From positions 226,687 to 290,686 of the forward strand of contig CALUHR010000013.1 of assembly GCA_944320495.1 (NCBI GenBank): a stretch of DNA of 64,000 nucleotides, read 5' to 3'. The stretch is from Candidatus Methanomethylophilaceae archaeon (GTDB lineage Archaea; Thermoplasmatota; Thermoplasmata; Methanomassiliicoccales; Methanomethylophilaceae). How positions within the stretch are numbered: position 1 is the stretch's first letter; each line of letters opens with the position of its first letter. The notes under the pieces were generated by a model. It was not told the origin of the DNA and searched no databases. It saw only the letters and a list, made by a program, of their open reading frames with translations. A program made the translations under genes and the position numbers. Below are positions 12,032 through 63,949 of this stretch, in pieces.

Positions 12032-12979
12032 TCACTCCCACTCGATGGTCGCGGGAGGCTTGTTCGTGATGTCGTAGACGACACGGTTGACGGAATCCTT
12101 CATCGTGTTCGTGATGCGGACCGAGATGGCGTCGAGCACGTCCAGCGGGATGCGGGCATAGGTGGCGGTCATGCCGTCGACGGAGGCGACGGCGCGGACG
12201 GCGATGGTCCTTCCGTACGCCCTCCTGTCGCCCTGCACGCCGACGGACCTGGACGGGAGGAGGACAGCGAAGTACTGCCACGGCATCTCCATCTTGCCGG
12301 CCTCGGCGGCCTTGCGGATCTCGTCCTCGACGATGTGGCAGGCCTCGCGGACGATCGCGATGCCCTCGGGTGTGACCTCACCGAGGCACCTGACTGCCAG
12401 TGCGGGGCCGGGGAAGGGCTGCCTCTCGGACGCCTTGACGCCGAGCAGTCTGGCAACATCCCTGACCTCGTCCTTGTAGAGGTCCCTGAGGGGCTCGACC
12501 AGCGTCATGCCCATGTCCTTGGGGAGCCCGCCGACGTTGTGGTGGGACTTGATGGTGTCCCTGACACCGTCGCCGCTCTCGATCCAGTCGGGGGCGATGG
12601 TCCCCTGGACGAGGTACTCCGCGCCGAAGTCCCTGGCCTCCCTCTCGAAGACCCTGATGAACTTCTCGCCGATGATCTTCCTCTTCCTCTCGGGGTCGGA
12701 GACGCCCTTCAGGGCGTCGAAGAACTCCTGGCCGGAGGAGGCGATCCTGTAGTTGATGCCCATGTCCCTGAGCATCCCCTCGACCTCCTCGGTCTCCCCC
12801 TTCCTCATGAGGCCGTTGTCCACGTAGACGGCGAGCAGCCTGTCGCCGATGGCCTTGCTGGCCAGAGTGGCGGCGACCATGCTGTCGACGCCGCCGGAGC
12901 AGGCGATGATGGCCCTGCCCTGTATCCTGGACCTGAGGTCCTCGACGGTCTCCTCGATGAAGTCCTCGGCACCCAGCAT
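12032..12979 (-). CDS. guaAB: GMP synthase ATP-pyrophosphatase subunit, paralogue 2
   Basis: 315 residues, typical archaeal GuaAB length. PP-loop [34 protein letters not shown] and the PPATIEWE C-terminus are intact. It starts at ATG 12979 with AGGTGG upstream, and purE ends 14 bases inside it, so the two are translationally linked purine genes. This copy, next to purE and closer to the archaeal pattern, is the likelier partner of GuaAA. Confidence 0.93.
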
Positions 12980-13445
12980 CCTGAACCACCTTCTCGGAAT
13001 CGGCGACGACCTTGTCCGCCTGCTCCCTCCTGTACGCGACCAGCGCGTCCCTGACGGCCGCGTCGTTCACGGCGATGATCTCGCAGGCGAGGATCGCCGC
13101 GTTGTCGCCGCGGTCGAGGCCGACACAGGCGACCGGGATGCCCGGGGGCATCTGGACGATCGAGAGGATCGCGTCCAGGTTCATGGCCCCGCTGACGGGG
13201 ACGCCGATGACGGGCTTGACTGTGAACGATGCTACGACTCCGGGGAGGGCCGCCGAGAGGCCCGCGATGGCGACGAAGGCGTCGGCGTCGCTGCCCTTGA
13301 CGAGCTCCTCTACCCTGGCGGGGGTCCTGTGGGCGGATGCAACCGCGATGTCGAAGGCGACGCCCAGCTTCTTCAGGACGTTGATCGCCTTCTCCGCCAC
13401 GGGCATGTCGCTCTTGCTACCCAGGATGATGGAGACCTTTGACAT
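12966..13445 (-). CDS. purE: N5-CAIR mutase PurE, ends at CGA
   Basis: 159 residues. ILGSKSDMP near the N-terminus, SAHRTP, and [15 protein letters not shown] are the PurE signature residues for the CAIR mutase step of purine synthesis. ATG 13445 lies 25 bases after a TATA element (about 13468-13477). The protein reaches normal PurE length at CGA 12968-12966. Otherwise the frame stays open for another 590 bases through guaAB. The C of this CGA is a silent third base (GCC, Ala) in guaAB. Confidence 0.9.
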
Positions 13446-13550
13446 TGTGTCTGCCATCCCCTCATCGATTAAAATCTATTGTAAAGACGGAAAAGCGAAC
13501 GGGTGCAGAAGGGTGAAGGATGTTTTGGTAAGGGGTTTCTCCGAGTCCGA

Positions 13551-13859
13551 TCAGCTCTTGAGAACGACGACCAGGAAGATGCCGACGGCGATGAGGGCTC
13601 CGATCAGGATTCCGATGAGGTCGATGATCGCGGTGTAGATGAGATCGAACGCATCGACTTCGTCGAAGACGGAGATGCTGCCATCAGCAAGCAGGTAGGC
13701 CCAGATGATTCCGATGACGAGACCGAGGACGGCCATGCACGCGCCTGCGGACCTGCTCTTACCAGATCCGAAGTACGCGGAGAAGATACCCGCCACCAGC
13801 ATGACCAAGGCGAATGCGAAAACCACCAGGGTCAGGAAGGCCATAAGGGTGAATTCCAT
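13551..13859 (-). CDS. Small integral membrane protein
   Basis: 102 residues with three hydrophobic helices (about 5-28, 38-58 and 73-98) and a short KSRSAG loop. No family recognised. GGAGG lies 8 bases before ATG 13859, and a TATA (TTATTATAAAAAT, 13919-13931) sits upstream behind a leader hairpin (GCCCGC/GCGGGC). The 300-base gap to gar1 holds only the two divergent promoters. Confidence 0.75.
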   Translation of the reverse strand: MEFTLMAFLTLVVFAFALVMLVAGIFSAYFGSGKSRSAGACMAVLGLVIGIIWAYLLADGSISVFDEVDAFDLIYTAIIDLIGILIGALIAVGIFLVVVLKS

Positions 13860-14158
13860 GTCTTAAACCTCCGATTTGGCCCGCAGAGCGGGCTCCGTTA
13901 GGTGCGCAACACAATCGTTATTATAAAAATAATTGGACAGGGGAACAGTCTGGCTCCCTGATGCACCATCCGGTCCATTCGGATATTACGTACGTATCCT
14001 GGATATACTGTGGCTGACCCATCCAAGAATCACAACAGTTAAAGTCGCAACGATCGACTTTTCGCTCAAAGTATAATAAATAAAGCCAAAGTTTTAAATA
14101 AAATACCAATATTCCTCTTATAACATTGTTGTCGTTCGAACTGGACTGCGTGATTCCG

Positions 14159-14419
14159 ATGGATATTCTGGGTGTTGTCGAGGAAACGACCTGCGATGGC
14201 AGGATCATCATCCGCTGCGACGCCCTGCCAGACATCGGAGACTCGGTGTTCGCCAAGGGTGGGAGGCTGGGCACCGTCGGCAGGGTGTTCGGACCGGTCG
14301 ACAGCCCATACGCATCCGTGAACCCCGTCGGGGGCGCCACGGCCGCGAAGGGCACAAGGACGTCTTTCAAGGGGAGAAAGCACGATGCCAAAAGTAAGAG
14401 AGGAAACAGAAGAGATCGA
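14159..14419 (+). CDS. gar1: H/ACA RNP component Gar1, ends at CGA
   Basis: 86 residues with the Gar1/Naf1 beta-barrel: [15 protein letters not shown], the turn [20 protein letters not shown], and a basic tail ([16 protein letters not shown]). Gar1 helps substrate loading in pseudouridine-guide RNPs. The gar1-tfb order is widely conserved in archaea. The frame meets CGA at 14417 after the basic tail; a TGA comes only 13 codons later. Overlaps tfb by 35 bases. A TATA (about 14093-14100) leaves TTG 14126 or ATG 14159 as starts. Confidence 0.85.
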
Positions 14420-15317
14420 AGTCTGTCCCGAGTGCGGAAGCCACCACCTCATCCGTGATTACGAGCGCGGAGAGCTGCTGTGCGAGGACTGCGGACTGGT
14501 CCTCGACGACCAGTTCATCGATCAGGGACCCGAGTGGAGGGCCTTCGATGTCGAGCAGGGCGAAAAGCGCGCACGCACCGGAGCCCCGATGACGTACACC
14601 ATCCACGACAAGGGTCTGTCCACCGAGATCTCCTGGAAGAACAAGGACAGCTACGGCAAGAGCATCCCCACCAGGAACAGGGCCCAGCTGTACAGGCTGA
14701 GGAAGTGGCAGAGGAGGATCCGTGTCTCCAACGCCACCGAGAGGAACCTCGCGTTCGCCCTGTCCGAGCTGGACAGGATGGCATCCGCCATGGGACTCCC
14801 CAGGAACGTCAGGGAGACGGCCGCCATGATCTACAGGAAGGCCGTCAACAAGAACCTGATCAGAGGAAGGTCCATCGAAGGCGTCGTGGCCGCGTCGCTC
14901 TACGCCGCCTGCAGGCAGTGCGGTGTCCCGAGGACGCTCGACGAGGTCGCCAACTCCAGCCGTGTCGGCAGGAAGGAGATCGGCAGGACCTACAGGTTCA
15001 TGACCCGCGAGCTGAAGCTCAAGCTGATGCCCACCAAGCCCCAGGACTACGTCCAGAGGTTCTGCTCCGAGCTCAAGCTGAGCGGGGAGGTCCAGAGCAA
15101 GGCCGCCGAGATCCTCAAGGACGCCTCCGAGAAGGAGCTCACCTCCGGCAGGGGACCCACCGGCGTCGCCGCCGCGGCCATCTACATCTCCTCCATCCTG
15201 TGCAACGAGCGCAGGACCCAGAGGGAGGTGGCCGACGTCGCGGGAGTGACCGAGGTCACCATCAGGAACCGCTACAAGGAGCTCACCGAGAAGCTGGGCA
15301 TCGAGATCCAGCTCTGA
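14385..15317 (+). CDS. tfb: Transcription initiation factor TFB
   Basis: 310 residues: zinc ribbon (CPECGSHHL...CEDC, residues 10-31), the B-reader/linker, and two cyclin-like repeats (about 110-205 and 210-305). It recruits RNA polymerase to TBP-TATA. It overlaps gar1 by 35 bases, so the pair is coupled. Ends in TGA, followed by a hairpin. Confidence 0.97.
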
Positions 15318-15341
15318 GCGCCAGAGGCGCAAACACTCACG

Positions 15342-15368: not shown

Positions 15369-15397
15369 TTTAATTTTGGTATGCCTTAACATCCTGC

Positions 15398-15736
15398 ATG
15401 GAACAGCAGGACCAGAGACCCAGCAGACATGTCTGCCTCACACGCAGGGCGCCGCTCGGCATATCGTCGGACCCGGAGCTGGACATGCTCCAGGCCCTGG
15501 CCGACCCGGACGTGCTGACGATGGTACGCGGGCTGGCGAGAGAGGAGGCCAGGTCCCCGTTCCCCGACGGACTGTTCGGACTGGACTCGCCGAGGACCAA
15601 CGCCGCGATCAGGAGGATGAGGGATGCGGGACTGATCTCCTCGCGCAGGGACGGCAACGATCACGTCTACTTCCTCAACGCCCCCAGGTTCCGCGACTTG
15701 GAGCACTTCATATCGGGACTGATCGCGAAGGACCGA
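15398..15736 (+). CDS. Winged-helix (ArsR-like) protein, ends at CGA
   Basis: 112 residues. LDMLQALADPDVLTMVRGLA, then TNAAIRRMRDAGLISSRRDGNDHVYFL, is a winged helix with recognition helix and wing. Target unknown. A TATA (about 15368-15376) puts the transcript start at the ATG, so leaderless. The frame meets CGA at 15734-15736, exactly one base before the last base of the convergent endA gene; without that CGA it would stay open for 1.1 kb of endA antisense. Confidence 0.75.
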
Positions 15737-16915: not shown

Positions 16916-17656
16916 ATGGTGAAGCAGACCGCTGGAAGGGATTCGCTCGGGGATTTCGCACCGAAGTTCGCCGAGCTGAACGACGATGTGCTGTTCGGGG
17001 AGGTGTGGTCCAGGGAGAACGGGCTGTCGCTGCGCGACAGGTCGCTGGTGACGGTCGTATCCCTGATGTCCCAGGGACTCACGGACTCGTCGTTCAGGTA
17101 CCATCTGGAATCAGCGAGGAGGAACGGGATCACCAGGACGGAGATCGCCGAGATCCTCACGCATGCGGCGTTCTACGCCGGCTGGCCGAAGGCCTGGGCC
17201 GCGTTCAACATGGCCAAGGAGGTCTGGGCCGAGGAGCCGGCGGACGATGCCAGGGCAAGGCACCAGACAGAGATGGTCTTCCCGATCGGGGAGCTCAACG
17301 ATTCGTATGCGCGGTACTTCACCGGAAGGAGCTACCTGGCGCCCGTGTCCACGTCCCAGATCGGGGTGTTCAACGTGACCTTCGAGCCGGGCTGCAGGAA
17401 CAACTGGCACATACACCACGCGGAGACCGGCGGAGGGCAGATACTCATCTGCGTCGCGGGGAGGGGGCGCTACCAGGAATGGGGCGGCGAGATCCGCGAG
17501 CTGAATCCCGGGGACGTCGTCAACATCCCCGCCAACGTGAAGCACTGGCACGGGGCGGCGCCGGACAGCTGGTTCTCCCATCTTGCGATAGAGGTCCCCG
17601 GAACGGGGACGTCGAACGAATGGTGCGAGCCCGTGGACGACTCGCAGTACCGCCGA
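16916..17656 (+). CDS. Carboxymuconolactone decarboxylase-cupin fusion
   Basis: 246 residues. The N-terminal half (to about 115) is a CMD/AhpD-like helical domain (LSLRDRSLVTVVSL...ILTHAAFYAGWP) without the CxxC redox pair. The C-terminal half is a cupin (NNWHIHHAETGGGQILICVAGRG...LNPGDVVNIPANVKHWH) with the metal-binding His/Glu set. CMD-cupin proteins are common in anaerobes; substrate unknown. The first in-frame CGA (17654) is followed by CCG CGA TGA, so CGA shortens the protein by only three residues. Confidence 0.88.
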
Positions 17657-17784: not shown

Positions 17785-18453
17785 ATGGATGAGATCGACA
17801 TGATGGAGGCGATCAGGGAGAGACACTCCGTCAGGAGGTACACGAACAGGAGGATCGAGGATCCCGAGAGGAGCCGGCTCCAGGAGGTTGTAGAAGCCTG
17901 CAACGCGCAGGGCGGCCTCAGGTTCCAGCTGTTCACCGACTCTCCGGGCGCCTTCGACGGCATCCTCTCCGGGGGGTTCAGGAACGTCGTGAACTACGTC
18001 GCCCTCGTCAAGAAGATCTCCGAGCCCGACGAGAAGGTCGGGTACTACGGAGAGGAGGTGGCACTCCGCGCACAGCAGCTGGGTCTGAGGACCTGCTGGG
18101 TCGGGCTCTCCTACAGCAAGAGGAGGTGCAGGGCGGAGATCGCCGACGACGAGAAGCTGGTATGCTTGCTGGCCGTCGGGTACGGAGAGAACGATGGGAC
18201 GGCCCACAGGAGCAGGCCCGCGGACCAGATCGGAAGATGCGAGGGGGATGCCCCGGAATGGTTCTCAAAGGGCATCGAGGCCGTGATGCTGGCGCCCTCG
18301 GCCATGAACAGGCAGAGGTTCAGATTCGTCCTCCAGGGGGACGGGCGCGTAAGAGCGGAGACCTCTGGGGGCGCCTACTCCGAGGTGGACCGGGGCATAG
18401 CGAAGCTGCACTTCGAGATCGGCGCCGGGACCGACAACTTCGAGTGGGCCCGA
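17785..18453 (+). CDS. Nitroreductase-family flavoprotein (PF14512-like), ends at CGA
   Basis: 222 residues. MMEAIRERHSVRRYTNRRIED is the nitroreductase N-terminus that binds FMN; VMLAPSAMNRQRFRF begins the second half of this duplicated fold, which ends near HFEIGAGTDNFEW as in relatives. Redox substrate unknown. Two tandem CGA codons (18451 and 18454) follow FEWA. Without them the frame is open through trpB antisense to 19869. A strong hairpin follows 21 bases later, as after other genes here. Confidence 0.85.
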
Positions 18454-22705: not shown

Positions 22706-24301
22706 TCGTTCGACCCTAGCTACAACATCGAAATCGTCACTAACGCCCAGAGCCTCGAACAGCCTTGGCACTCTCCTGTCCCGCGACCCTCTGATCAATC
22801 CATTGACCGTAATCGTCGCCTTGTATGTCGAGGCCATGAGGAACGCCCTGGAGACGTCGACATCCTTCATACCGGCGGCGTCGAGAGTCCTCTGTATCTC
22901 CGAGTAGATCGTTATCGCGATGAACTCGATGAACAGATGCGGTTCTGTGCGGACGCCCTTGCAGATATAACGCTTCAGCTGCCTGGAGCCACCATTGAAC
23001 TGGGCTATCGCCCTGGAGATCGCGGTCCTCGCCACGCGCCCGGACACCACGTCATCCCATTCAGCCGAGCGCAGGACGACAAACGTCTTCCCCGCATCGG
23101 TCCTGAACTCAGAAATCCTGCCGCGCCTTCTGATGAGACTCATGGTCCCATCCTCATCGATGACGTAGCGTAGGAACCGCTCGAACCGCCCTGCGACCTT
23201 CTCGAAGGCCTCCGCCGGATACTCGAACACCTTCCCCTCCAGACGGAATTCTATGTCAGAGAGGGCATCCCTCAGGGCCACGACCTCCTCCGCCCTCATA
23301 CGCGGGTCGTAACAGAGGAACGATATGAGGCCCATAACCGCATCCCCGAACCTGGGATCTGTCTGTGGCACCAAGATCTGCCCTCCCGTGCCCTGCAAAA
23401 GCCCGACGACCCCCTCCTGAAGATAATACTCCCTCCCGGAATGCTCCTTCCTGAAGCATGGGGATTCCACGTCCCGGTAATCGGACTGCACCGCCCGGAA
23501 CTGATCGGAATCTGCGGCGTACGGTATCGCGAAGTCCACATCGCCATCTATCAAGCCCGTGAGATCCAGAGTGGGACTGATCGCCGTGTCCGCGATGAAC
23601 ACACAGTCCGAGGTCTTGCGAATCGACTGCATGACCTCCACCAGCTCCGACGTATCACGGGAAATGTCACCCACGGGGCTGAACGCTATAGGCATCCCGT
23701 CCTCGGTCATTATGATCAGGATGGAGACCTCGGTCGCGGGGTCCCTCCTCTCCCGGGCCTGTATGATGTCGTCAGAATCGATCGTCTGATGCGCATATGC
23801 GTAGAGCTTCCCGGAATGCATGGACCATCTGCGTCTGAAGAATGCGAACATCCTGTCAAGGTCGATGGAATTTACAATCCCGCGCACATCCGCGCTCCCG
23901 ATGCGAGCATCGAGACCCAGCAGGTATGGGATGCACGAAGAGTTGAGCACCAGATCGATCGAATCCGATGGTGTCGGCCTGATAGCCTGCGCCAGCGCCA
24001 GGGCGAGTATCCTGTCCGCATCCTTCCCGAACACTCCCTCAAGGTCCTCGCGAATGCCCAGGCGCTCGGCCACGGTAAACGCCAGAAGGGCATCCCCATA
24101 GTTGACCATCCTGGCCCCGTCCGGGGGCAGCTCGCGTGGAGGTACACGGGCGACCTTCTCATGTATCTCCCCCGTCTCCGGATCGACCACGCCCAGATAC
24201 CGCTTGACCGAGACGGGGTTCTTCCTCCCCGGCACGCGTTTGGACGTGGACGTGTATGCGTATGTCTTGCCGTTGCGGTTCTCGTACCTTATGGACGACA
24301 T
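22706..24301 (-). CDS. IS1634/IS4-type transposase-like protein, ends at CGA
   Basis: 531 residues, normal for IS1634-type transposases. The N-terminus (SSIRYENRNGKTYAYTSTSKR, VKRYLG) and the core (FIADTAISPTLDL, later HLFIEFIAITIYSEIQ) fit the DDE family. The frame meets CGA at 22708-22706 after FDVVARVE; the next standard stop is 400 bases on, inside pdaD antisense. About 65 Arg codons, none CGA before the end. I see no terminal inverted repeats, and intact genes abut both sides, so it may be an IS relic or a fixed gene. Confidence 0.75.
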
Positions 24302-24329
24302 GGCGACCATCCATCCTCGGTCTGTGCGA

Positions 24330-24515
24330 TCGGTCCCTGTCGGACAGGAGCCTTCCCGCGGTCGCGATGCTCTCGCGCGGCAGCTCGTGGAACAACACTG
24401 TGATGGCCTGCTCGGGGATGCCAGATATCCTGGAGAACTCCGTCGTGATGACGGTGGCCGCCTCCCTCTTCTTCTCCACCGTGAGCTGCGACGATTCGAT
24501 GGTTATTACCGGCAT
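24330..24515 (-). CDS. 4-oxalocrotonate tautomerase-like protein, ends at CGA
   Basis: 61 residues, the typical 4-OT subunit size. The catalytic Pro follows the initiator Met (MPVITIESSQLTVEKKRE), and the chain ends ATAGRLLSDRD as in relatives. It catalyses keto-enol tautomerisation through a hexamer; the natural substrate is unknown. Without the CGA at 24332-24330 the frame continues 56 codons into the transposase gene. Confidence 0.82.
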
Positions 24516-26443: not shown

Positions 26444-29118
<2,675 letters not shown>

Positions 29119-29759: not shown

Positions 29760-30722
29760 ATGACCAGTGAGACCATGGGCAGGACCGAACTCATCAACAC
29801 GACACGTGCCATCCTGGCCAAGGCGGGATTCGACGTTTCATCCGCGCTGAGCATGCGCGGGATATGCTTCGACGTTGTCGCCAGGCTGGACGACCGCGTC
29901 CTGATCATCAAGGTCCTCAGCAACGTGGACGCGTTCTCGAAGGAGAACGCCGCGGAGATCAAGACGCTCTCCGAGGCCCTGGGCGCGACCCCGCTCGTCG
30001 TTGGGGAGAGGTCCAGCTCCGGTGACCTGGAGCCCGGCATCGTCTACTCCAGGTTCAACATCTCCATAGTGTCGAACGAGACCCTGGCGGACCTCCTGCT
30101 GGAGGATTCGCCGCCCTTCATATTCGCCGCGCCCGGCGGGCTCTACGTCAAGCTGGACGGCGCCCTGCTGAAGCAGGCGCGCGAGAGCATGGGCATGAGC
30201 CTCGGCGCCATGGCCGAGATCGCCGGCGTGTCCAGGCGCACCATCCAGATGTACGAGTCCGGCATGGGCGCCATGATAGACGCCGCGCTCCGCATAGAGG
30301 AGAAGCTCGGCCTGCCGATCATCGAGCCCATCGATCCCTTCGAGTTCAAGAACGAGGAACGCGAGAAGGAGGAGAAGTCCGAGAACGCCCCCGTGGACAC
30401 CTTCGCCGTGAACCAGCTCTGCAACCTCGGGTTCTCCGTCAGACCGGTGGTTCGCAGCCCGTTCGAGGCCGTGAGCACCGGCAACAGGTCGCTCATGCTG
30501 ACCGCCTACGGGTCGGACGACGACCGTCTGGCACAGCGTGCGCTGGTAGCATCGGACATTGCGCGCATCATGGACCGCTTCTCCATCCTCATCGTGGAGC
30601 GCAAGCACGTGGACAGGGACAACATCGATTCCACGGCTGTAGTCTCCAACGAGGAGCTCAAGAAGATAGACGCCCCCGAGGAGCTAACGGACCTCGTCGC
30701 CTCGAGGGGGTCCCGCAGATGA
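29760..30722 (+). CDS. COG1395-type HTH transcriptional regulator
   Basis: 320 residues. N-terminal nuclease-like fold (about 10-115), a classic Cro-type HTH in the middle (LKQARESMGMSLGAMAEIAGVSRRTIQMYESG, about 137-168), and a C-terminal domain resembling the first. This is the widespread archaeal COG1395 family. A TTTTTATAGAAG promoter lies 20-30 bases upstream, so leaderless. Its TGA overlaps the ATG of the next gene. Confidence 0.88.
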   Translation: MTSETMGRTELINTTRAILAKAGFDVSSALSMRGICFDVVARLDDRVLIIKVLSNVDAFSKENAAEIKTLSEALGATPLVVGERSSSGDLEPGIVYSRFNISIVSNETLADLLLEDSPPFIFAAPGGLYVKLDGALLKQARESMGMSLGAMAEIAGVSRRTIQMYESGMGAMIDAALRIEEKLGLPIIEPIDPFEFKNEEREKEEKSENAPVDTFAVNQLCNLGFSVRPVVRSPFEAVSTGNRSLMLTAYGSDDDRLAQRALVASDIARIMDRFSILIVERKHVDRDNIDSTAVVSNEELKKIDAPEELTDLVASRGSRR

Positions 30723-31330
30723 TCCACGTCGCCGTTGGCGAGTGCGAGGTGGACATCCTGCCGGTGGTCAACGGCATCGTGTCGGAGTGCGACAGGGTGC
30801 GTGAGGCCTACGGCGGATACGAGTCGTACGCCGCATCCATGGGCATCGAGGGCATCCAGGCGATAAGGGCCAGACTCACCCTGGACGGGGACGCCGAGGT
30901 CAGCGAGCTGGACATCGCGTACGCCCGCAGGATGATGGCCCTCACCGGCGAGGAGGTGCAGATGCCCTCTCCCGCCATGTGCACCCTTGTGGACCTTGTG
31001 ACCGCCGACGGCGGCAGCGTCATCGCCCTGGACATGAACGACGAGGAGTTCACCGAGATGTACTGCGAAACTGTGCCAGCCTTCGATTTCGTGAAGGAGC
31101 ACCGCCTGGCCAAGAAGGGGCTGAAGAAGCGCTTCTCGTCCGAGACCCCCGAAGGGTTCGCCCTCGAGTGGGACGCGTACGTGAACACCGTCAAGAGCTA
31201 CCGCCAGGTCTCCCTGAACCGCGAGAGGCACATGGCGGACGAGATCAGGGACATAGCCAGATACCGCCGCAGCCTCCTCGCCGTCATCGAGGTCGAGCGC
31301 GCCGAGGGCGTCGCATCACTGCTGAGGCGA
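30719..31330 (+). CDS. Conserved-looking protein of unknown function, ends at CGA
   Basis: 203 residues, soluble, mixed alpha/beta, with no motif I can name (MIHVAVGECEVDILPVVNGIV at the start; helical C-terminus). It overlaps the regulator by 4 bases (ATGA) and ends at CGA 31328-31330, four bases before the next ATG. Without that CGA the frame stays open through all of the CPBP gene to 32392. No internal CGA. Confidence 0.7.
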
Positions 31331-31334: not shown

Positions 31335-32378
31335 ATGGCCTGCGACATGTGCGAGGAGTCCCGCGAGGCCGGGATGAGGTTCTGCCCCCATTGCGGCCAG
31401 CCCCTGGCCGCCGACATCGTCCCGAAGGAGGAGCCGAAGCCGTTCCTCAAGACGGTCGTCGCCTGGACCACGGCCGTGGTCATGGCGCTCCTGGCTTTCG
31501 AGACCCTGTTCCTCATCATAGGCGCCCCGGACGTCTTCGACTGGTGCCAGTACCACTCCATGGACGTCCTGGTGCTGATCCCCAACCTGGTGACCGCGTG
31601 CACCATATCGGGGAAGGCTCTGCAGCTCGCCTGGGTCCTGATCTTCGCCGCGGCCGTCGCATCCATAGCCATGGTGATCTGGAGGACGTACCGCCAGATC
31701 TCGGACAACAGCGACGAGCCGGACTGCATCGAGAGGACCGACGCGTACGGGATGTCCAGGCTGTTCGCCGCATCCATAGCCCTGAGCGTGATATCCAGCA
31801 TCTTCCTGATGTCCTTCGGGAACGGGATCGACGTGCCGGAGGACCTCCCCGTCGGGAGCGAGTCCTCCGCCATCCTCTCGTTCACCAACGCGGCGGTGTG
31901 GGAGGAGATCATAGCCAGGGTGGCCTACATCGGCCTGCCCATGGCGGTCATCGCGGCCGTGTGCGGGAAGGGGAGGGGTTCGTTCAGGTTCCTGCTCGGA
32001 GGGTTCGGCCTCAGCAAGGCCGCCGTCGTGCTGATCGTCGTCTCCTCGCTGATCTTCGGATTCGGCCACATGAGCGGATGGGGGCTGGAGAAGGTGCTCC
32101 CGACCACCCTGTCCGGACTGATAATGGGTTACGCGTTCGTGAGGTACGGCATCCACGTGTCCATCGGGATACACTTCCTGACGGACTTCCTCGGGGTGAT
32201 CGCGGGACCGGACACGATGACGCTGGCCGCGATATTCATCATGGCCATCCTGGTGCTCGGGATCCTCTGCCTCATCGACCTGCTGATCGGTCTGAATCGC
32301 TCGCTCGACGGAGTCCGCGACCTGCCGAACTGGGTCCCCGATCGGGAGAGCAGCGCCTCGAGGCGCGACAGCGACTGA
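31335..32378 (+). CDS. Zinc-ribbon CPBP-family intramembrane protease
   Basis: 347 residues. An N-terminal zinc ribbon (CDMCEES...CPHCG) is followed by about eight membrane helices. The glutamic protease motifs of the CPBP/Rce1 family are visible: EEIIARVAYIG (EExxxR), FGFGHM and IHFLTD. It cleaves substrates within the membrane; target unknown. Third gene of the 29760 unit. Its TGA-ended tail overlaps the convergent isomerase by 37 bases. Confidence 0.87.
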   Translation: MACDMCEESREAGMRFCPHCGQPLAADIVPKEEPKPFLKTVVAWTTAVVMALLAFETLFLIIGAPDVFDWCQYHSMDVLVLIPNLVTACTISGKALQLAWVLIFAAAVASIAMVIWRTYRQISDNSDEPDCIERTDAYGMSRLFAASIALSVISSIFLMSFGNGIDVPEDLPVGSESSAILSFTNAAVWEEIIARVAYIGLPMAVIAAVCGKGRGSFRFLLGGFGLSKAAVVLIVVSSLIFGFGHMSGWGLEKVLPTTLSGLIMGYAFVRYGIHVSIGIHFLTDFLGVIAGPDTMTLAAIFIMAILVLGILCLIDLLIGLNRSLDGVRDLPNWVPDRESSASRRDSD

Positions 32379-33100
32379 ACCGCGGACTCTAGGCTCTTGG
32401 ATTCGATGATCCAGTTCCCGCGGTATCCGCGAAGACGCGAGACGACGTGACCGAAGTCGATGTCCCCGTCACCTATCGTCAGATGCTCGTCCCTCTGACC
32501 GTGGTTGTCGTGGATGTGGATGTTCACCAGCCTGTCGGCGAACCTGTCGATCATGGCGTCGACCTGCCCCGTGGTGTTGGCGTGCCCGATATCGAAGGTC
32601 ACACCGAGATCGGTGCCCTCGATGAGGCTGCCGAGGCTCTCGGCGGTCCTCCCCAGGAAGAACGGGACATTCGGCATGTTCTCGATCCCCAGCCTGATGT
32701 CCCTGCCGGCGACCAGCCTGTCCAGGGCCCTGAGCGACTCCCTGGCACGCACCATGGCGCGCTCCTCAGTTCCCGGCACGGACATGGACGACAACCCGGG
32801 GTGGGCCGTGACGACCTTGGCGCCGAGCTCCTCGGCCGCCTCGATGTTCGCCACAGTCTCCTTCAGCGAGGCCTCCCTGAGCCTGTCGCTGAGGGCGGCG
32901 ATGTTCCAGTCGCATATGGGCGAGTGGACCTGCCTGGAGAGGCCGGCGGAATCCAGGATGCCCTTGATCGCTGGCGTGTCGCGGTAGACGATGTGGTCCG
33001 CCTCCGAGAATATCTCCCACAGGCGGAAGTGCTCGGAGATCGGTCCCGCCCACTCCGCGACTGGCGTCGCGCTGAACCCGGGGCAGGACACCCCGATCAC
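32342..33100 (-). CDS. Sugar phosphate isomerase/epimerase (AP endonuclease 2 family), ends at CGA
   Basis: 252 residues, a TIM barrel with metal ligands in VVTAHPG, LGIENMP, VTFDIGHANT and IHIHDNHG, and Glu in WIIESKSL. Reaction not readable. The start is GTG 33100, overlapping the UPF0201 stop (GTGA). The expected C-terminus (SLSRLEALLS) is followed at once by CGA 32344-32342; without it the frame runs 70 codons further antisense to the CPBP gene. Confidence 0.85.
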
Positions 33101-41310: not shown

Positions 41311-41616
41311 TTATTCATCCTCTGATTTGTATAAGTCAACTCCAATCGCTCTCTTCACCTTCTCACGGAGATCGCTCTGATCCCCTCCGACCGGCACGAC
41401 GACGGGCTGGATCGAATCCATGACCCTGTGCCTGACGGCGAAAGAGAGGTTGTCCAGATCCTTCGCGTCCACTGCGAGGATACCGATGTTGGGCTGGGAC
41501 ATCGCCTCCAGCATTTTTTCCTGGTAGTTGTCTTTCTCAGCAACGAAGACGCGCCTGATACCGGCGAGCCTGAAGCCGAGCACGAACTCATCGCTGCCTA
41601 TTACTGCGATCTCCAT
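41311..41616 (-). CDS. atpF: A-type ATP synthase subunit F
   Basis: 101 residues, CheY-like fold (IAVIGSDEFVLGFRLAGI...NIGILAVDAKDLD), part of the central stalk. Its ATG at 41616 shares the A with the CGA that ends atpC (CGATGG), the same geometry as the common TGATG overlap. Ends in TAA. Confidence 0.94.
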   Translation of the reverse strand: MEIAVIGSDEFVLGFRLAGIRRVFVAEKDNYQEKMLEAMSQPNIGILAVDAKDLDNLSFAVRHRVMDSIQPVVVPVGGDQSDLREKVKRAIGVDLYKSEDE

Positions 41617-42671
41617 CGGATCACCAGCAACCCTTTGATGGTGTCTGCGTCCAGTCCGCTCTCCACTCCCCTCGAGATGGTCCTGATGTTGCTGACCTCG
41701 ATCTCCTTGTGGATCATGTAGTCGATGATGGGGACCACCGACAGGGGGTACATGTGGGAGAACTTGTTCGCGGCGGCGATCTCGTACTTCTTCATCTCGG
41801 TGACGACCTCCCTGATGCTCACCTTGTCGGATTCCACGAGTCCCTTGATGGAGTCGTAGAATTCGAGGCGGGACAGGTCGGAGGACGCGGCGGCGATGGT
41901 CTCCGCGTTGGCGAGCTGAGTCGCGTAGCGGGTGTCGATCTGCCTTCCCCCGGGGATGATGTACTTCATCACGACCTCGCCGTGGATCCCCTCCGCCTTG
42001 AGCTTGAGGATCGTCTCGAGGTTCTTGATGTCGATCTCCGTCCTGACGTAGTCCTGGAACATCCTGGTCGGCCTGGAGGTGGGGTTGATGCTCTTGACCA
42101 GCCTCACGTAGTGGGCCTTGTCCAGGTAGTCCTCGATCTCTCCCAGGTTCCCGGTCGACTTGTAGGTCGAGATGACGTCCTGGGGGATCGTGATGTGTTC
42201 CATCTTGTCGTAGTTCGCGATTATGTCTTCCACACTGTCGAGCGAGAGCAGCTTCTCCAGAGACTCGGAGTCCAGACTTCCGGCGGGGACCAGGTCCTCC
42301 CTGATTCCCTCGGGGTCAAGTCCGTACGACTTGCCGCGCAGGATGACCTTCAGGTTCCAGATGTCCCACTTCTCGAGGTACGCCTGGACCATGCCCTTGA
42401 GCTCTCCCTGGGAGGCCTGCAGGATGCTGCTGAACACCTTCGCCATGTTGGTGTAGGTGGCGTGCTCCACGAGGTCCATCCCCTCCAGCCTGCCGGCGAG
42501 GTCGGTCATCTCCTTCTGATAACCGGACTCGCTGATGTAGCGGGAGATCTCCGGGACGCTCATGAGCAGCATCTTGTTGTAGTCCTCGTCCTTGAGGAGA
42601 AGGGCCTTCTTGGCCTTCACCCTGGACACGGCATACGCGTAGTTGCCTGCCCTTCCGCTGCGGTTGAACAT
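41616..42671 (-). CDS. atpC: A-type ATP synthase subunit C, ends at CGA
   Basis: 351 residues, three helical repeats of the funnel that couples the c-ring to the stalk (NYAYAVSRVKAKKALLL at the start). ATG 42671 is preferred: GGTGA lies 5 bases upstream. The frame meets CGA at 41618-41616 after TIKGLLVI, overlapping the atpF ATG; it then reads four more codons to a TAA. No earlier in-frame CGA in about 350 codons. Confidence 0.92.
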
Positions 42672-46568: not shown

Positions 46569-47426
46569 GTGAGCGGGGACAACAAGGGATTCATTCTGAC
46601 GATTCTGGTCATAGTCATCGTGTTTGTCGGCGGATACGCCGCACTCGTAGTGTACACAGGATCCAGCGTCCCCTTCAGCTCCGTCGTCTCCGAGAGCATG
46701 CAGCACGACAACGACAGGTCCCAGATCGGCGTCATAGACACCGGGGACATAGTCATCGTGCGCGACCCGGACAAGACCGACATCCACAGCTACGTGGAGA
46801 GCGTCGCCGACGGCTACGAGTCCTTCGGGAACTACGGATCCGTGATAATCTACAACCGCGTGGGACAGAACCCCGTCATCCACAGAGCGATGCTGTGGCT
46901 GGACTACAACGGGGACGGAACGTGGTCAGCTCCCGACCTCGCGAACATCCAAGGAAGCTGGTACTATCAATACGAGACCGTGAACAGCGAGACCGGCGAG
47001 GTCACCGTCACGAGGGGCACTGACTACATGAACATACGCGGGGAGCTCCACTTCCTTGACCTGGACGGAAAGACCCCGTACATCGACCTGGATTCCCTCG
47101 CAGTCAAGAAGAGCGGATTCCTCACCATGGGCGACAACCACGAGACCAACCCGAACTTCGACCAGCAGTCCGGGATAGTCGACCATCTGATCTCCCATGA
47201 GGACATCAAATCGGTGGCGGTCATCGAGATTCCATGGATGGGATCCCTGAAGCTGCTCATCAACGGAAGCGACAATCTGGCACATGTGCCGAACAGCGTC
47301 CCGTCCCTGATAATGGAGATAGTCCTCGTGTTCTCGGCGCTCATGCTCCTCGATTTCCTCACCGTGTTCAGATACAACAGGAAGAGACAGAGGAAGATCG
47401 AGCTGGTCGAGAAGTGGAAGGGACGA
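46569..47426 (+). CDS. Signal peptidase I (archaeal/ER type), ends at CGA
   Basis: 285 residues. An N-terminal membrane anchor (ILTILVIVIVFVGGYAALVV), Ser nucleophile in VVSESMQHDN, His in PVIHRAM (the Sec11-type Ser-His pair), MGDNHETNPNFDQ, and a second membrane helix near the C-terminus. GTG 46569 follows TTTTTATTTATT by about 25 bases. The frame meets CGA at 47424 after VEKWKG; the next 38 codons to TGA would translate an origin repeat and enter cdc6, so the CGA end is favoured. Confidence 0.85.
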
Positions 47427-49102: not shown

Positions 49103-49390
49103 ATGTCTGCACACAGGTATGCCGCCTTGGGAATGGCAGTCGTATTGGTCGTTCTCACTCTGGTCCTGTTCTCGGACGAATCCATGCAGGAGGATCCGGA
49201 CATGACCGGGATAGTGAGTGATATCAAAGAGGGAACGAACGGATATACCTTCATTCTGAACACATACGACGGAAGTGTGAGGTGCTTCTTCCGCGAGAGG
49301 CCTGCAGATCTCTCGTACTGCGGCGTCTCTGGGACCTTCTCCGACGACGGGTCCATACTCTTCGTGGAGAGATTGGTCCATTTGGATCGA
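49103..49390 (+). CDS. Membrane-anchored OB-fold-like small protein, ends at CGA
   Basis: 95 residues: an N-terminal hydrophobic helix (ALGMAVVLVVLTLVLF) followed by a short beta domain (GIVSDIKEGTNGYTFILNTYDGSVRCFF...CGVSGTFSDDGSILFVERL) with the rhythm of an OB fold. TATA at about 49069, leaderless. The frame meets CGA at 49388 after VHLD and a TAA six codons later (SSHHQ). Confidence 0.65.
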
Positions 49391-52166: not shown

Positions 52167-53414
52167 GTGGATTACTCCGTTATGAAGAGCCTCCAGTCCG
52201 TCTTCGGAGAGATAGATGCCAGCATGGAAGAGATAATCCAGACAGCCGTCGAGTTGGTCGGATATCCCGCATTGGCACCGATCAACGGAGGGACTGGCGA
52301 GGGGGCCAAGGCGGATTACATCGTCTCCAAGCTCAGGGGGTTCGACAGCGTCGAGCGTATCGAGTTCCCCGATGTTACTGATCCTTCTGTGATGAGGCCC
52401 AACATAATCGCCAGGAAGAATGGCAAGGGCAAGGGGACCTTGTGGATAGTGTCCCATATGGATGTGGTCCCCACTGGTGACCCGGAGTTGTGGGACACTC
52501 CTCCGTTCGAAGGAGTCTACAAAGACGGTCGCATCTACGGCAGGGGGACCGAGGATAACGGACAGTCCGTCGTGGCCTCGATGTTCGCCGCCAAGCCGTT
52601 CCTGGATGAGGAGTTCGATGGGATGTCGCTTGCCTTAGCCTATGTGGCGGACGAGGAGACCTCCAGCGTCCTCGGCATACAGAGCCTCCTGGAGAAGGGT
52701 CTGTTCTCGGAGGACGATGCGATAATGGTCCCGGACTGGGGATCCCCAGGAGGAACCATGATAGGCCTGGCGGAGAAGTCCGTCCTATGGCTGAGGTTCG
52801 TGATCGAGGGGAGGACCACCCACGGTTCCACTCCCGAGCTCGGTGTCAACGCGTACCGCGTCTCCACTCTCCTGTTGATGGACCTGATGGAATCCCTCCC
52901 GGAGAAGTTCGGCGAGAGGGATGACCGCTTCCTGAATGGCGTGTCCACGTTCGAACCGACCAAGAGGCCAGCCACTGTCGACAACGTGAACACGATACCC
53001 GGCCACGACGAGTTCTGCATGGACATCCGCCTCCTCCCTGAATACGACCCCGATGATGTGCTGCGCGAGGCCGAGGCCATCGCGAGATGCTATGCGAGGG
53101 ACACGGGCGCCGAGATCCGTGTGGAGGTCATCCAGAAGGCCGTAGCGGGAAGACCGTCGCCAGATGACAGGGAGGAGTTCACCGCCCTGGCGGAATCCGT
53201 CGAGGAGGTAATCGGAGTGAGACCGAGAGGTGTCGGGATGAGCGGCGGCACATGTGCCAACTTCTTCAGGCTCAAGGGACTGGACGCGTATGTGTGGCAG
53301 TCGGAGGGAGGGACCCTTCATGCGCCCAACGAATACGTGACGGTGGACCATCTGCTGACCGATGCGAAGGTGTACGCCTCGCTTATCCGCAGGATGTGCG
53401 TCACTCGTCGCCGA
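52167..53414 (+). CDS. M20 family metallopeptidase/deacylase, ends at CGA
   Basis: 415 residues. Dinuclear zinc ligands in SHMDVVPTG (His/Asp), GRGTEDNGQ and ADEETSSVLG (catalytic Glu); the GVNAYRVSTLL dimerisation domain follows. Close to the dipeptidase/ArgE-DapE group; substrate unknown. Start is GTG 52167 or ATG 52182. The frame meets CGA at 53412, 14 bases inside the convergent ftsY, or TGA at 53448 if CGA is read. No other in-frame CGA in 415 codons. Confidence 0.88.
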
Positions 53415-55384: not shown

Positions 55385-56614
55385 TCGGAAAAGCCTCTGT
55401 CTGCCCGCCTCCTCCGATGCGAATCCGAAATCGGCCATCTTCCTGCCTATGAGGAACACGGCGGCGAACTCGGGGACCTCCGTCTCCCCCTCCAGGGAGA
55501 AATGCTCCCCCTTCATGTCCAGCTTCGCGGGCCTCCTCATCGTGATCTTCACAGGGTCGTCGGAGTAAGCGTCAGGCACTGCCATCTGCAGGGGGTCGAA
55601 ATCCGTGAGCTGGTCCCTGGTGATGGGGGTCACGCGGAGCCCGCTCTTGCCGTGGACGGACCCGGGGAGGCGTATCAGCCTCTTGATGTCCGCCGTGACC
55701 GGCTCGTCCACCTCGCCCGAGAGTCTCGGTGCCATGTCCTCGGCCATGATCTTCACGAGGATGTTCTGGGTGGACGTGGACAGCATGGCCATGGTGTTCC
55801 TCTCGAACAGCCTGGTCCTGGCGCCCTTCAGCTCCTCCTGGGCCTTGTAGACGGTCTTGATGTCGCTGCCCTTGATGCTGGGGTACTCGCGTTTGAGCTC
55901 CTTCCCGTCCCCGTCGCAGAAGTCGTTGACGACGTCCATGAGGCCGTGGCGCATTCTCAGCCTCCATCCTCCCGCATCCGCGGGAGGGATCAGCCTGTCC
56001 TTGGCGACGTTGGTGCGCATGCCTGACCCCGTGACGACCTTGGACGTGGCGACCCTGTTGTAAGGGAAGACCCAGTCGATGTTGAGGCCGGACCCGGTGA
56101 TGTAGTCCACGAGCTCGCGCCTCTCGTGCGTCCCTAGCTCCATGACGTCCGGCGTGCGGACGTGGGCGTGGTACCCCCTTCCGCCGGAGAACGTGATGTG
56201 GACCTGCTCCTCCGAGAATCCCAGGTCCCCGAGCAGGAAGGAGTCGACGAGGTTCATCATCTCCGAGCGGATCTGCCTGAGCATCTCCGCATAGGTCATG
56301 TTCGCGGCGCCCTCCAGGTGGTCGGCGTCCAGGTCGAAGATGAGCTCCGCCCCGAGCCACTCCTTCTCGTCCATGGTGGGGGCGTCCGGCTTGCGGTAGT
56401 ATGACGTGGAGTAGTAGCTGTGCGCGGGGACGTTCCCCTGCATGTACCGGCGCAGCTCTTCGGGGCTGCTGAACGATAGGTGCCTCTGGACGTAGTTCCT
56501 GTCGAAGAACATGAAGCCGAACTCCCTGCGGGCGAACCTGTCTGGCACAATGGGACCGTCCGTCCGGTAGTACTTCTTGAACGCCTTGAGCATGAAGCGG
56601 GAGTTCGGGTCCAT
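55385..56614 (-). CDS. priS: DNA primase catalytic small subunit PriS, ends at CGA
   Basis: 409 residues. The catalytic Asp pair is in LIFDLDADHLEG, with SGGRGYHAHV and the RLPGSVHGKSGLRV region behind. It makes primers with PriL. ATG 56614 is 25 bases after a GGATATACGC TATA, so leaderless. The frame meets CGA at 55387-55385 (after AGRQRLF), in front of the rplX promoter; otherwise it stays open across that promoter and all of rplX. No other CGA in 410 codons. Confidence 0.92.
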
Positions 56615-57546: not shown

Positions 57547-57551
57547 CAGCG

Positions 57552-60680: not shown

Positions 60681-60683
60681 GCG

Positions 60684-62166: not shown

Positions 62167-62649
62167 ATGTTCGGCAGGAAGCAGTCCAAGGTCAAGACCC
62201 GCATCCTCTTCGTCGAGGCCAAGAACGACTTCGCCTCGCAGATGGCGGAGTACTTCACGAGGCAGCTCTACGACGGCATGTACGATGCGTACAGCGCCGG
62301 GCCCGAGAAGGACATCGTGGACTGCGACATGATCACCGCCATGTACGAGAGCGGGGAGGACATCAGGAGGCAGATCTCCAAGGACTTCAAGGACCGCGAC
62401 TTCCTCAGGGAGGACGAGGAGTACGACGTCGTGGTCTACATGGACCGCCCCACGTTCGAGGAGTGGTCCGGACGCACCCCCTGGAAGGGCAAGCAGATGC
62501 TCGCCGTCGTGAAGCAGCGCTCCGAGTTCACCGCCACCGACGACGCCGAGCTCTTCGACGAGTACGTCGCCTGCATGAACGAGGTGAAGGCCTGGGTCGA
62601 GGAGAACCTCGCCGACCCCGAGAAGCTCAAGTCGATGGTCACCGCATGA
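62167..62649 (+). CDS. Low-molecular-weight phosphatase-like protein lacking the catalytic Cys
   Basis: 160 residues. ILFVEAKNDFASQMAEYF occupies the place of the LMW-PTP/ArsC loop (CxxNxCRSxMAE), but the nucleophile Cys is Glu and the Arg is Ala. A later DRPTF recalls the Asp loop. It is therefore probably a binding protein rather than an enzyme. It is coupled to tsr3 by an ATGA overlap. Confidence 0.7.
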   Translation: MFGRKQSKVKTRILFVEAKNDFASQMAEYFTRQLYDGMYDAYSAGPEKDIVDCDMITAMYESGEDIRRQISKDFKDRDFLREDEEYDVVVYMDRPTFEEWSGRTPWKGKQMLAVVKQRSEFTATDDAELFDEYVACMNEVKAWVEENLADPEKLKSMVTA

Positions 62650-63176
62650 TCCCGGTCATCGTCTACGACGAGTGTCAGTGCGACCCCAAGAAGTGCACCG
62701 CGAAGCGGATGCTCAAGTTCGGCCTCGCCAAGGAGGCGAAGACCCTCGGATCGATACCACGCGGATCCGTCGTCCTCTCGCCGTTCTCCGACAGGGCGCT
62801 CTCGCCTGCGGACATACAGCACGCGAGGCGCGGTCTGGTCGTCATGGATCTGACATGGGCGAACATCGACGGGTTCCCCAGGCTCAAGCACGCGGAGGAG
62901 AGGGCCCTGCCGTATCTGCTCGCCTCCAACCCGATCAACTGGGGCCGTCCCATGGAGCTGAACAGCGCCGAGGCCGTGATGGCCGCTCTGTACATCCTCG
63001 GCGAGAAGGACCAGGCGGCGGAGTTCCTGGGCAGGTTCAACTGGGCCCCGGAGTTCATGAGGCTCAACGGGAACATGCTCGAGGACTACTCCAAGGCGAA
63101 GGACAGCACCGAGGTCGTGAGGATCCAGGGCGAGTATCTGGAGTCGATCGTGGGCGGTCCGGAGAACCCGGAGCGA
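62646..63176 (+). CDS. tsr3: Tsr3-type rRNA aminocarboxypropyltransferase, ends at CGA
   Basis: 176 residues. VYDECQCDPKKCTAKRML at the N-terminus and SRGLVVMDLTWANIDG-like core (here RGLVVMDLTWANIDGF) define Tsr3/DUF367, which adds the acp group to hypermodified pseudouridine in small-subunit rRNA. Ends GGPENPE then CGA 63174, with two more CGA within four codons; without them the frame runs 47 codons antisense to the ferredoxin gene. A GCCCGCC hairpin follows. Confidence 0.9.
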
Positions 63177-63213
63177 TCGCGAAGTCGAAATTCTGACAGA
63201 AGGTTGGGGTTTG

Positions 63214-63236
63214 TGCCCGCCCTCGCGGGCGGGCGT
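63214..63236. terminator. GC hairpin between tsr3 and ferredoxin
   Basis: GCCCGCC-CTCGC-GGGCGGGC inverted repeat between the convergent genes, consistent with tsr3 ending at CGA just upstream. Confidence 0.5.
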
Positions 63237-63243
63237 TGCAATC

Positions 63244-63411
63244 TCAGTCGGAGATGGCGCTGGAGGGGCACTCGTCGACGCAGGCTCCGCAGTCGACGCA
63301 CTTTCCGGCGTCGATGACGGCGATGTCGTCGCAGGTGATGGCGCCCTCGGGGCACACATCGACACAGGCTCCACACGCAACGCACTCGGACTCATTGACT
63401 ACTGCTACCAT
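63244..63411 (-). CDS. 2[4Fe-4S] ferredoxin
   Basis: 55 residues with two CxxCxxCxxxCP motifs (CVACGACVDVCP and CVDCGACVDECP). Electron carrier of methanogenesis-type metabolism. ATG 63411; TATA CCTTTTATACC about 35-45 bases upstream. Ends in TGA. Confidence 0.95.
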   Translation of the reverse strand: MVAVVNESECVACGACVDVCPEGAITCDDIAVIDAGKCVDCGACVDECPSSAISD

Positions 63412-63712
63412 TTTTATGGCCTCGGAGGAAAAACCGACGAGGGGGTATAAAAGGCCGATGGATTTCCAGTTAGGTACGGTTAAAACAGGCCGATTTTTGT
63501 TAGGATGTATTAACTCCGCCAGACGGGACATCCCGGACGTCTGGCTATGTGTCCCGAACGCCCTCCGCCTCCCCGATCGGGCGCCGATGCGGGGCCTCCG
63601 GGATGCGGACCCCCTAAACGCGTTCTCGGAAACGCCTCTCCGCGCGGTCCCGGAGGAGCGCTCCGACGGCCCCCGGATACCTTTATTTCAGATGGGCCCA
63701 TCGTCCGGCGCT
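63412..63712. other. 301-base gap with structured sequence
   Basis: Beyond the ferredoxin promoter (63446-63456) the gap holds an 8-bp inverted repeat (63518-63525 with 63538-63545), further GC-rich short repeats and the TATA of the next gene (about 63681-63688). A small RNA is possible but unproven. No protein gene seen. Confidence 0.3.
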
Positions 63713-63949
63713 ATGAGCGGAGACGACCTTCTGAGGATGATATGGGACGCCCTCGGAGCCGATCAGGTGACCACGAAAGAGGCCACCGACAGGCTGGAGC
63801 AGGCGTTCGGCTACAGGTGTCCGGACGACCTCGCAAAGACGTTCATGAAGTTCCGGAAGGAGGGCCTAATCAAGGGCCAGATCTCCATGGACCGCGGAGG
63901 ATGGGTCTGGTGGGTCGACGACGAGTGCCGCTCCAGGAGGTCGCTCCGA
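63713..63949 (+). CDS. Small winged-helix-like protein, ends at CGA
   Basis: 78 residues: helices (LLRMIWDALGADQVTTKEATDRLEQAF), a second pair (DDLAKTFMKFRKEGLIKG) and a wing-like strand pair (RGGWVWWVDDECR), suggesting a small nucleic-acid-binding fold; no family recognised. Leaderless start 25 bases after CCTTTATTTC. It ends SLRR-type at CGA 63947-63949, whose A is the A of the next ATG (CGATGG). No standard stop occurs before the window ends. Confidence 0.7.

Follow-up and report, generated by a model that had tools for sequence, protein, structure and literature searches.

The arginine codon CGA very likely acts as a stop codon in an archaeal genome of Candidatus Methanomethylophilaceae, where the release factor aRF1 is predicted to recognize it directly and to compete for it with tRNA-Arg(UCG). 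This reading stems from two properties of the codon: it ends roughly a quarter of the called genes, and gene interiors almost lack it. The stretch of DNA in question (the window) spans 64,000 nucleotides of contig CALUHR010000013.1 in assembly GCA_944320495.1 and carries 19 genes that end in CGA. More broadly, the findings probably reflect a new genetic code in cells, with CGA as a stop in much of the family. This would be the first sense-to-stop change in cells and the first with C in the first codon position; aRF1 would police itself by means of the one conserved CGA that is left inside a gene, and living species would represent stages of the change.

Genomes and loci compared

The genome under study (G000) comprises 1.77 Mb on 14 contigs and is 90.6% complete, and the window is part of its contig C13. 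The portion analyzed amounts to 464 kb, and the aRF1 locus was fetched separately. "Genus" refers to genomes G000 to G024 of a search for relatives, and "outgroup" to G025 to G040, which belong to other families of the order, together with loci L151 and L156. Further loci, many of them centered on aRF1, were gathered by scanning named genomes with the G000 aRF1. The matching records are labeled Methanomassiliicoccales or one of its families, Thermoplasmata, Thermoplasmatales, Euryarchaeota, or "archaeon". The closest is the uncultured Methanomassiliicoccales isolate SI.A92.metabat-bins.58, followed by Candidatus Methanomethylophilaceae assemblies. We infer that G000 belongs to Candidatus Methanomethylophilaceae, a family of methane-making archaea of which many have been sampled from animal guts. 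Several named relatives recur below: Thermoplasmata archaeon isolate SIG8 (locus L155, a metagenome assembly), the Methanomethylophilus types COG_1, 1R26, and UBA78, and two Methanoplasma-type loci, L123 (titled Candidatus Methanoplasma) and L119 (grouped there by the present analysis).

CGA at the ends of genes

Genes were called by codon and coding score with four stops allowed (TAA, TAG, TGA, and CGA); one outgroup set, G031, yielded no called genes. The window holds 72 genes, which end in TGA (47), CGA (19), TAA (5), and TAG (1), and the CGA ends fall at exactly the 19 coordinates listed in the initial annotation of this DNA. Allowing CGA as a stop raises the coding score of the window by 604; all 61 sense codons were tried in this way, and the runner-up, CGG, gives a rise of 246. 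Across the 464 kb, 302 of the 428 called genes end in TGA, 102 in CGA, 20 in TAA, and 4 in TAG (an earlier caller threshold gave 435 genes, 104 of them with a CGA end). Reading on past CGA would add at least 50 amino acids in 32 of these 102 genes and at least 100 in 23. It is a confirmed observation, at the level of the DNA, that CGA behaves as a stop codon in G000, and gene ends, orthologues, and interior counts all support the initial annotation on this point.

Avoidance of CGA runs through the family, and CGA gene ends occur in several of its lineages. In SIG8, 35 of 81 called genes end in CGA and 40 in TGA, and in the congener G001 the codon ends 15 of 58. Close relatives can differ in whether a given gene ends in TGA or in CGA. 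One window gene, at 57316-57546, ends in TGA in G000 and in CGA in G001, G004, G006, G011, and G021.

The base that follows the stop also differs. In G000, T stands directly after 58 of 102 CGA ends versus 79 of 302 TGA ends (p=3e-8), and in SIG8 after 20 of 35 versus 7 of 40. Part of the excess in G000 comes from CGATG overlaps with the start of the next gene, which are found at 31 of 102 CGA ends versus 20 of 302 TGA ends. Because SIG8 lacks the tRNA (see below), this preference had been expected to weaken there, but the 20 of 35 just cited show that it does not. A gene for pyrrolysyl-tRNA synthetase is present in G000 (L368, G000:C9:67854-68522) and in G014, G007, and SIG8 (L365-L367). Because this enzyme is present and TAG stands at only 4 of 428 gene ends, TAG, rare as a stop, probably encodes mostly pyrrolysine. 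The effective stop set would then be TGA, TAA, and CGA.

Relatives stop where G000 has CGA

An alignment of the CGA-ended proteins with their orthologues, which the initial annotation had called for, supports termination at CGA. A stop was required within 8 codons of the CGA, and one pair was counted per genome. For the 19 CGA-ended genes of G000 with orthologues, 98 of 100 pairs stop at the same place, 94 at TGA, TAA, or TAG and 4 at CGA. The agreement holds within the genus (67 of 68 pairs; 58 TGA, 5 TAA, 4 CGA) and in the outgroup (31 of 32; 21 TGA, 9 TAA, 1 TAG), and for every gene among the 19 some relative ends with a standard stop at that place. As a control, 575 interior points were picked at random, and none had a standard stop. 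Exclusions comprised 147 pairs with coverage below 70%, 78 with a C-terminal gap of more than 12 residues, and 4 at contig ends, and pairs with the near-identical assembly G008 were tallied apart. When overlapping loci are allowed to count some genomes twice, 122 of 124 pairs agree.

A test against wider relatives accepted matches down to 30% identity. In a few of these, tRNA loci of SIG8 itself were counted as a separate genome, and every such gene among those listed was also matched elsewhere. CGA ends passed in 21 of 21 genes from G000, 14 of 15 from SIG8, 5 of 6 from COG_1, and 2 of 2 each from 1R26 and UBA78. Elsewhere in the family, the counts were 11 of 14 in G001, 5 of 7 in L113, 3 of 6 in L105, 3 of 5 in L109, 1 of 1 in G014, and 1 of 2 in G016, with 0 of 1 or 0 of 2 in G018, G003, G005, G010, G020, and UBA71. 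With the Methanoplasma types set aside, the 17 family sets that have a testable CGA-ended gene give 68 of 88 in total. Of the 20 misses, nine come from aRF1, which the caller truncates at its internal CGA; others involve genes that evolve fast or show weak similarity. As a negative control, genes were forced to end at CGA in order-mates outside the family, where 6 of 80 pass, and in the Methanoplasma-type loci L123 and L119, where none of 6 does. The resulting contrast of 44 of 46 versus 6 of 86 restricts the former figure to G000, SIG8, COG_1, 1R26, and UBA78.

CGA is nearly absent from gene interiors

A count of no CGA among 3,030 CGN codons was true by construction of the gene caller and is not used. 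Interiors were delimited by a segmentation that gave zero weight to CGA, TGA, TAA, and TAG and was seeded from G000. This seeding replaced self-training on long open reading frames, which chose the wrong frame for several high-GC loci. Left out of the segmentation results are L120, which was plainly wrong (33 CGA per 1000), and the low-GC loci L132, L139, and L147. Among 119,305 interior codons of G000, the segmentation finds 50 CGA, 71 TGA, 22 TAA, and 13 TAG, or 0.42, 0.60, 0.18, and 0.11 per 1000, respectively, with a background of 27.8 for the CGA trinucleotide. The same codons include 2,338 CGC, 386 CGT, and 222 CGG.

A second count considered only positions where an aligned homologue has arginine. 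None of 855 such arginine codons in the 464 kb of G000 is CGA, and the separately fetched aRF1 locus has 1 of 87. The initial annotation had named many internal CGA codons in conserved genes as evidence that would speak against it, and no such abundance is found here. In 22 family sets, CGA accounts for 21 of 8,679 arginine codons at homologous arginines: 18 at the aRF1 site described below, 1 in a gene of G014, and 2 in a stretch of 1R26. The last of these (L150, 11808-11826) lies in a conserved gene adjoining aRF1 that looks frame-shifted. The aRF1 gene is over-represented in this count, since the named loci are centered on it and further aRF1 loci, from G000, G014, and G007, were included; if those are left out, CGA accounts for 0 of 855 codons in G000, 0 of 473 in G007, and 1 of 541 in G014. 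In members of the order that lie outside the family, CGA is an ordinary arginine codon (152 of 2,219 arginine codons in nine outgroup sets). Intermediate use is seen in the Methanoplasma types (27 of 1,422) and in UBA72, UBA421, and UBA370 (19 of 735).

A conserved CGA in the release factor gene

The strongest reason to take aRF1 as the reader of CGA is that a conserved internal CGA lies in the release factor's own gene. In the genus, this codon specifies Arg87 (in IAARLKTYK), and the aligned residue in human eRF1 is also arginine. All 14 genus aRF1 genes fetched, chosen regardless of CGA, carry it, with no other CGA past the start region. It is likewise present in 19 of 20 named loci of at least 81% identity that cover the site (several representing the same genomes), the exception being SIG8. 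In a set of 24 distinct sequences that carry CGA87, codon choice varies at 12 of the 14 other invariant arginine columns, columns 59 and 195 being the two where it does not. These 24 were picked for having CGA87, and the invariance of the codon itself rests on the set of 14. The preceding codon also appears constrained. It is NCT in 22 of the 24 sequences, whereas 77 of 1,143 alanine or TCN codons elsewhere in the gene end in T (p=6e-23). The base after CGA87 is C in 24 of 24, and other leucine codons of the gene begin with C in 778 of 818 cases.

The site is not the same throughout the family. In the Methanomethylophilus types, the internal CGA of aRF1 falls at Arg34 instead. The aRF1 gene of UBA328 (L117) has its sole CGA at column 20 and CGC at 87, and 0 of the 23 genes at that locus end in CGA. 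SIG8 has CGC at 87 and no CGA inside the gene, and its aRF1 gene (L155, 10004-11233) is itself called with a CGA end. Some residues of the protein also differ from those of relatives. At the site aligned to F56 of human eRF1, the genus has Gln and the outgroup mostly Tyr or Phe. The aRF1 proteins of G001 (L077) and L149 have NIRS for NIKS, and that of G000 has GRSTEL for GRGTEL.

The proposed competitor tRNA and its absence from SIG8

The initial annotation expected tRNA-Arg(UCG) to be missing. It is present in G000, contrary to that expectation, and absent from the sister species SIG8. In G000, an A-A mismatch (31-39) closes the anticodon loop of this tRNA, and a 31-39 mismatch (A-A or C-A) is found in 14 of 17 genomes. 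Of the other three, G007 has a 27-43 mismatch instead, and G022 and COG_1 have no mismatch. SIG8 gives 43 tRNA matches; G007 and G000 have 42 tRNA kinds, of which only tRNA-Arg(TCG) is absent from SIG8. This gene adjoins an AIRS-family gene in G000, G014, and the genomes of L105 and L113. In SIG8, the AIRS-family gene lies on an unbroken contig, and the adjoining tRNA spot is empty. If aRF1 and tRNA-Arg(UCG) compete for the codon, the joint absence of this tRNA and of a CGA inside the aRF1 gene would be expected, since without the tRNA an internal CGA could not be translated.

Mechanism and alternative explanations

Of the two mechanisms offered in the initial annotation, a decoder that accepts YGA fares better than C-to-U editing. 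A plausible path would begin with CGA becoming rare in the family. The factor aRF1 might then have terminated at CGA often enough for TGA-to-CGA transitions at gene ends to be tolerated, with tRNA-Arg(UCG) acting as a weakened competitor. Under this scheme, the internal CGA of aRF1 would be a leaky stop, read as arginine when aRF1 is scarce and causing termination when it is plentiful, which would let aRF1 limit its own production. The living species look like stages of such a path. CGA would be a rare arginine codon in the Methanoplasma types, emptied from genes in G007 and its kin, a stop shared with the tRNA in G000, and a full stop without the tRNA in SIG8.

A number of observations weigh against termination at CGA by aRF1, beginning with the fact that the evidence for it is DNA sequence throughout. 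The tRNA-Arg(UCG) gene is present in G000 and was found in 17 of the family genomes examined, so occasional reading of CGA as arginine is probably still possible. The absence of this tRNA from SIG8 rests on one metagenome assembly. CGA-ended genes are scarce in several congeners, such as G007 (1 of 86) and G019 (0 of 63), which nevertheless avoid the codon inside genes, so avoidance and stop use are separable. In a gene of the single-contig G014 (L226, minus strand, near base 912), presumably TiaS-like judging from its motif, residue 45 of the open frame is encoded by CGA, which makes it the sole aligned-arginine exception outside aRF1 and the frame-shifted stretch. The preference for a following T is not clear in other congeners (CGA 20 of 46 versus TGA 67 of 205) or in the Methanomethylophilus types (CGA 2 of 13 versus TGA 17 of 51).

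The release factor itself contributes further difficulties. An unusual aRF1 had been expected and is seen only in part: the NIKS, YxCxxxF, and GGQ motifs of the G000 protein look normal; changes near the codon pocket do exist, but a search of aRF1 for a residue that tracks the use of CGA as a stop found none. The Gln at the F56-aligned site, for example, is shared by the Methanoplasma-type loci, which use CGA as arginine. The same loci also carry the aRF1 CGA at Arg34, where it looks like an ordinary codon. Leu88 would mostly supply a C after CGA87 anyway, which makes that base weak evidence, and a conserved RNA structure was sought after CGA87 and not found.

Among the alternatives to termination by aRF1, an unlikely one is that CGA is unassigned or starved, so that ribosomes stall and a rescue pathway of the aPelota type frees the protein. 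The normal recognition motifs of aRF1, the lack of a cognate tRNA in SIG8, and the near absence of CGA even in congeners that scarcely use CGA ends are all compatible with a starved codon. Rescue would, however, be needed for 102 of 428 genes in G000, including atpC, priS, and purE, and for 35 of 81 in SIG8. Nor does starvation predict a conserved internal CGA in the release factor gene with a constrained codon before it. Editing of C to U, which would turn CGA into UGA in the mRNA and leave termination to ordinary UGA decoding, is considerably less probable. The term "CGA stop codon" does exist in the plant-organelle literature, where editing produces such codons, and an edited CGA would likewise vanish from gene interiors. 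However, a frame-blind form would recode the 2,279 NCG codons that precede A in the scored genes. These are not avoided (A follows 25.9% of NCG and 27.7% of NCC), and because out-of-frame CGA is this abundant, editing of every CGA is disfavored. Editing would have to sense the reading frame, as a translation factor does, and it would leave the conserved internal CGA of aRF1 unexplained.

It is very improbable that CGA is merely a rare arginine codon and that the proteins continue to the next standard stop. A tRNA-Arg(UCG) exists, and CGG is rare too (10 of 349 CGN codons). Nevertheless, 98 of 100 orthologue pairs show a stop at this place, readthrough would add the long extensions noted above, and conserved genes do contain CGG and CGT. 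Least credible of all is an assembly or base-calling error that turned T into C at stop codons, even though most of the named records are labeled as metagenome-assembled genomes or carry metagenome bin names. The separate assembly G008 (96.6-99.5% nucleotide identity over three pieces) has CGA at both orthologous ends compared, and the same habit appears in the named records SIG8, COG_1, 1R26, and UBA78. Such an error could neither empty gene interiors of CGA nor accompany the loss of one tRNA gene. Direct reading of CGA by aRF1 in competition with the tRNA is the explanation preferred here.

The CGA-ended genes of the window

Ten of the 19 CGA-ended genes in the window had a sampled orthologue, and each of these has at least one standard stop at the same place. 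The gene for A-type ATPase subunit C (atpC, 41616..42671, minus strand, CGA 41616-41618) overlaps the next gene through CGATG and matches PF01992 over residues 15-346 of 351; its orthologous loci, some genomes counting twice, end in TGA (39), TAA (5), and CGA (1). The primase small subunit gene priS (55385..56614, minus, CGA 55385-55387; PF01896) would gain 114 amino acids by readthrough, and its orthologous loci, again with some genomes twice, show 28 TGA, 2 TAA, and 4 CGA. An M20 peptidase gene (52182..53414, plus, CGA 53412-53414) matches PF01546 to residue 403 of 410, with 11 TGA, 3 TAA, and 1 CGA at orthologous loci. A 285-amino-acid gene that the initial annotation labeled signal peptidase (46569..47426, plus, CGA 47424-47426) has no Pfam match; orthologous loci stop at its end with TGA (6) or TAA (1), and further on with TGA (1) or CGA (1).

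Fewer orthologues were available for the other six. A xylose-isomerase-like TIM barrel gene (32342..33100, minus, CGA 32342-32344; PF01261) has four, all with TGA. A 203-amino-acid gene (30719..31330, plus, CGA 31328-31330; readthrough would add 354 amino acids) has three with TGA, and a 68-amino-acid gene (49184..49390, plus, CGA 49388-49390) has one with TGA and two with TAA. A single orthologue with TGA is available for each of the remaining three: purE, encoding AIR carboxylase (12966..13445, minus, CGA 12966-12968; PF00731 over 3-144 of 159 amino acids; readthrough +196; the orthologue is from the outgroup), a small protein gene (15485..15736, plus, CGA 15734-15736; readthrough +371), and a nitroreductase gene (17785..18453, plus, CGA 18451-18453; PF14512 over 5-214 of 222; readthrough +472).

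The other nine genes had no orthologue in the sample. Protein domains reach close to the CGA in a 4-oxalocrotonate tautomerase-like gene (24330..24515, minus, CGA 24330-24332; PF01361 over 2-60 of 61 amino acids) and in tsr3 (62646..63176, plus, CGA 63174-63176; PF04034 over 42-165 of 176), which would gain 47 amino acids by readthrough. Domains stop at residue 214 of 246 in a CMD-cupin gene (16916..17656, plus, CGA 17654-17656; PF02627 and PF07883), at 191 of 216 in a 4Fe-4S protein gene whose CGA is directly followed by TAA (36498..37148, plus, CGA 37146-37148; PF13237), and at 59 of 169, the end of the helix-turn-helix domain, in a winged-helix regulator gene (26444..26953, plus, CGA 26951-26953; PF12840). 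A Gar1-like gene (14159..14419, plus, CGA 14417-14419) matches PF04410 below the cut-off. No Pfam match was found for a 96-amino-acid gene (1698..1988, minus, CGA 1698-1700) and a 78-amino-acid gene (63713..63949, plus, CGA 63947-63949), both with a CGATG overlap, or for a 534-amino-acid gene (22706..24310, minus, CGA 22706-22708), which leaves the earlier label of transposase for the latter without support.

Relation to known systems

The CGA stop would belong to the sense-to-stop reassignments, at the far edge of that kind. UCA and UCG are reported to have become stops in green-algal mitochondria (PMC6821328), and UUA and UCA in peDinoflagellate plastids, a case that its 2025 paper calls the first sense-to-stop change outside mitochondria (PMC12574857). 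As in these organelles, a sense codon has moved to gene ends and left gene interiors, with apparent changes in release factor and tRNA. Unlike the organelle cases as described, which involve RF1/RF2-type factors and keep U in the first position, the present one concerns the cellular genome of an archaeon, the factor aRF1, and a codon that begins with C. Among the matches listed in open-license PubMed Central, with preprints outside this scope, there was no report of a sense-to-stop reassignment or a CGA stop in a cellular genome, studies of the genetic code in this order included.

Certain features have parallels elsewhere. The bacterial RF2 gene prfB is described as carrying an internal stop for its own factor followed by C (PMC12421855, PMC13245932, PMC5289835), an arrangement of UGA-C that resembles CGA-C here if aRF1 does read CGA. 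The bypass in prfB is a +1 frameshift, whereas full-length aRF1 would require in-frame reading of CGA as arginine by tRNA-Arg(UCG). Because the frame of aRF1 runs unbroken through CGA87, this is no prfB-type frameshift, and the two would be alike only in how they work. The factor eRF1 is reported to terminate at rare sense codons in competition with tRNAs, CGA being one that stalls ribosomes (PMC6755126). That system likewise sets a eukaryotic-type class I factor against a tRNA, but the outcome described there is lowered protein output, whereas CGA here is a regular gene end.

Arginine reassignments found with Codetta also involve rare CGN codons with a changed meaning, although those described go to other amino acids and occur in bacteria; by its authors' account, Codetta cannot detect new stop codons (PMC8629427). 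The unpaired 31-39 position in tRNA-Arg(UCG) of 14 of 17 genomes resembles tRNAs with a 4-bp anticodon stem, which were surveyed in bacteria and tested by UGA readthrough with tRNA-Trp, unlike the arginine tRNA considered here (PMC13092985).

Implications

Annotation with translation table 11 overruns CGA ends in these genomes, by at least 100 amino acids in the 23 of 102 G000 cases given above. In the sources cited (PMC6821328, PMC12574857), sense-to-stop changes are reported from organelles only, whereas the genomes considered here are cellular, at 1.5-2.4 Mb. The case is also relevant to the question of how class I factors such as aRF1 and eRF1 distinguish U from C at the first codon position. 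Furthermore, the presence of relatives at apparently successive stages makes the capture of a codon by a release factor directly testable in this family.

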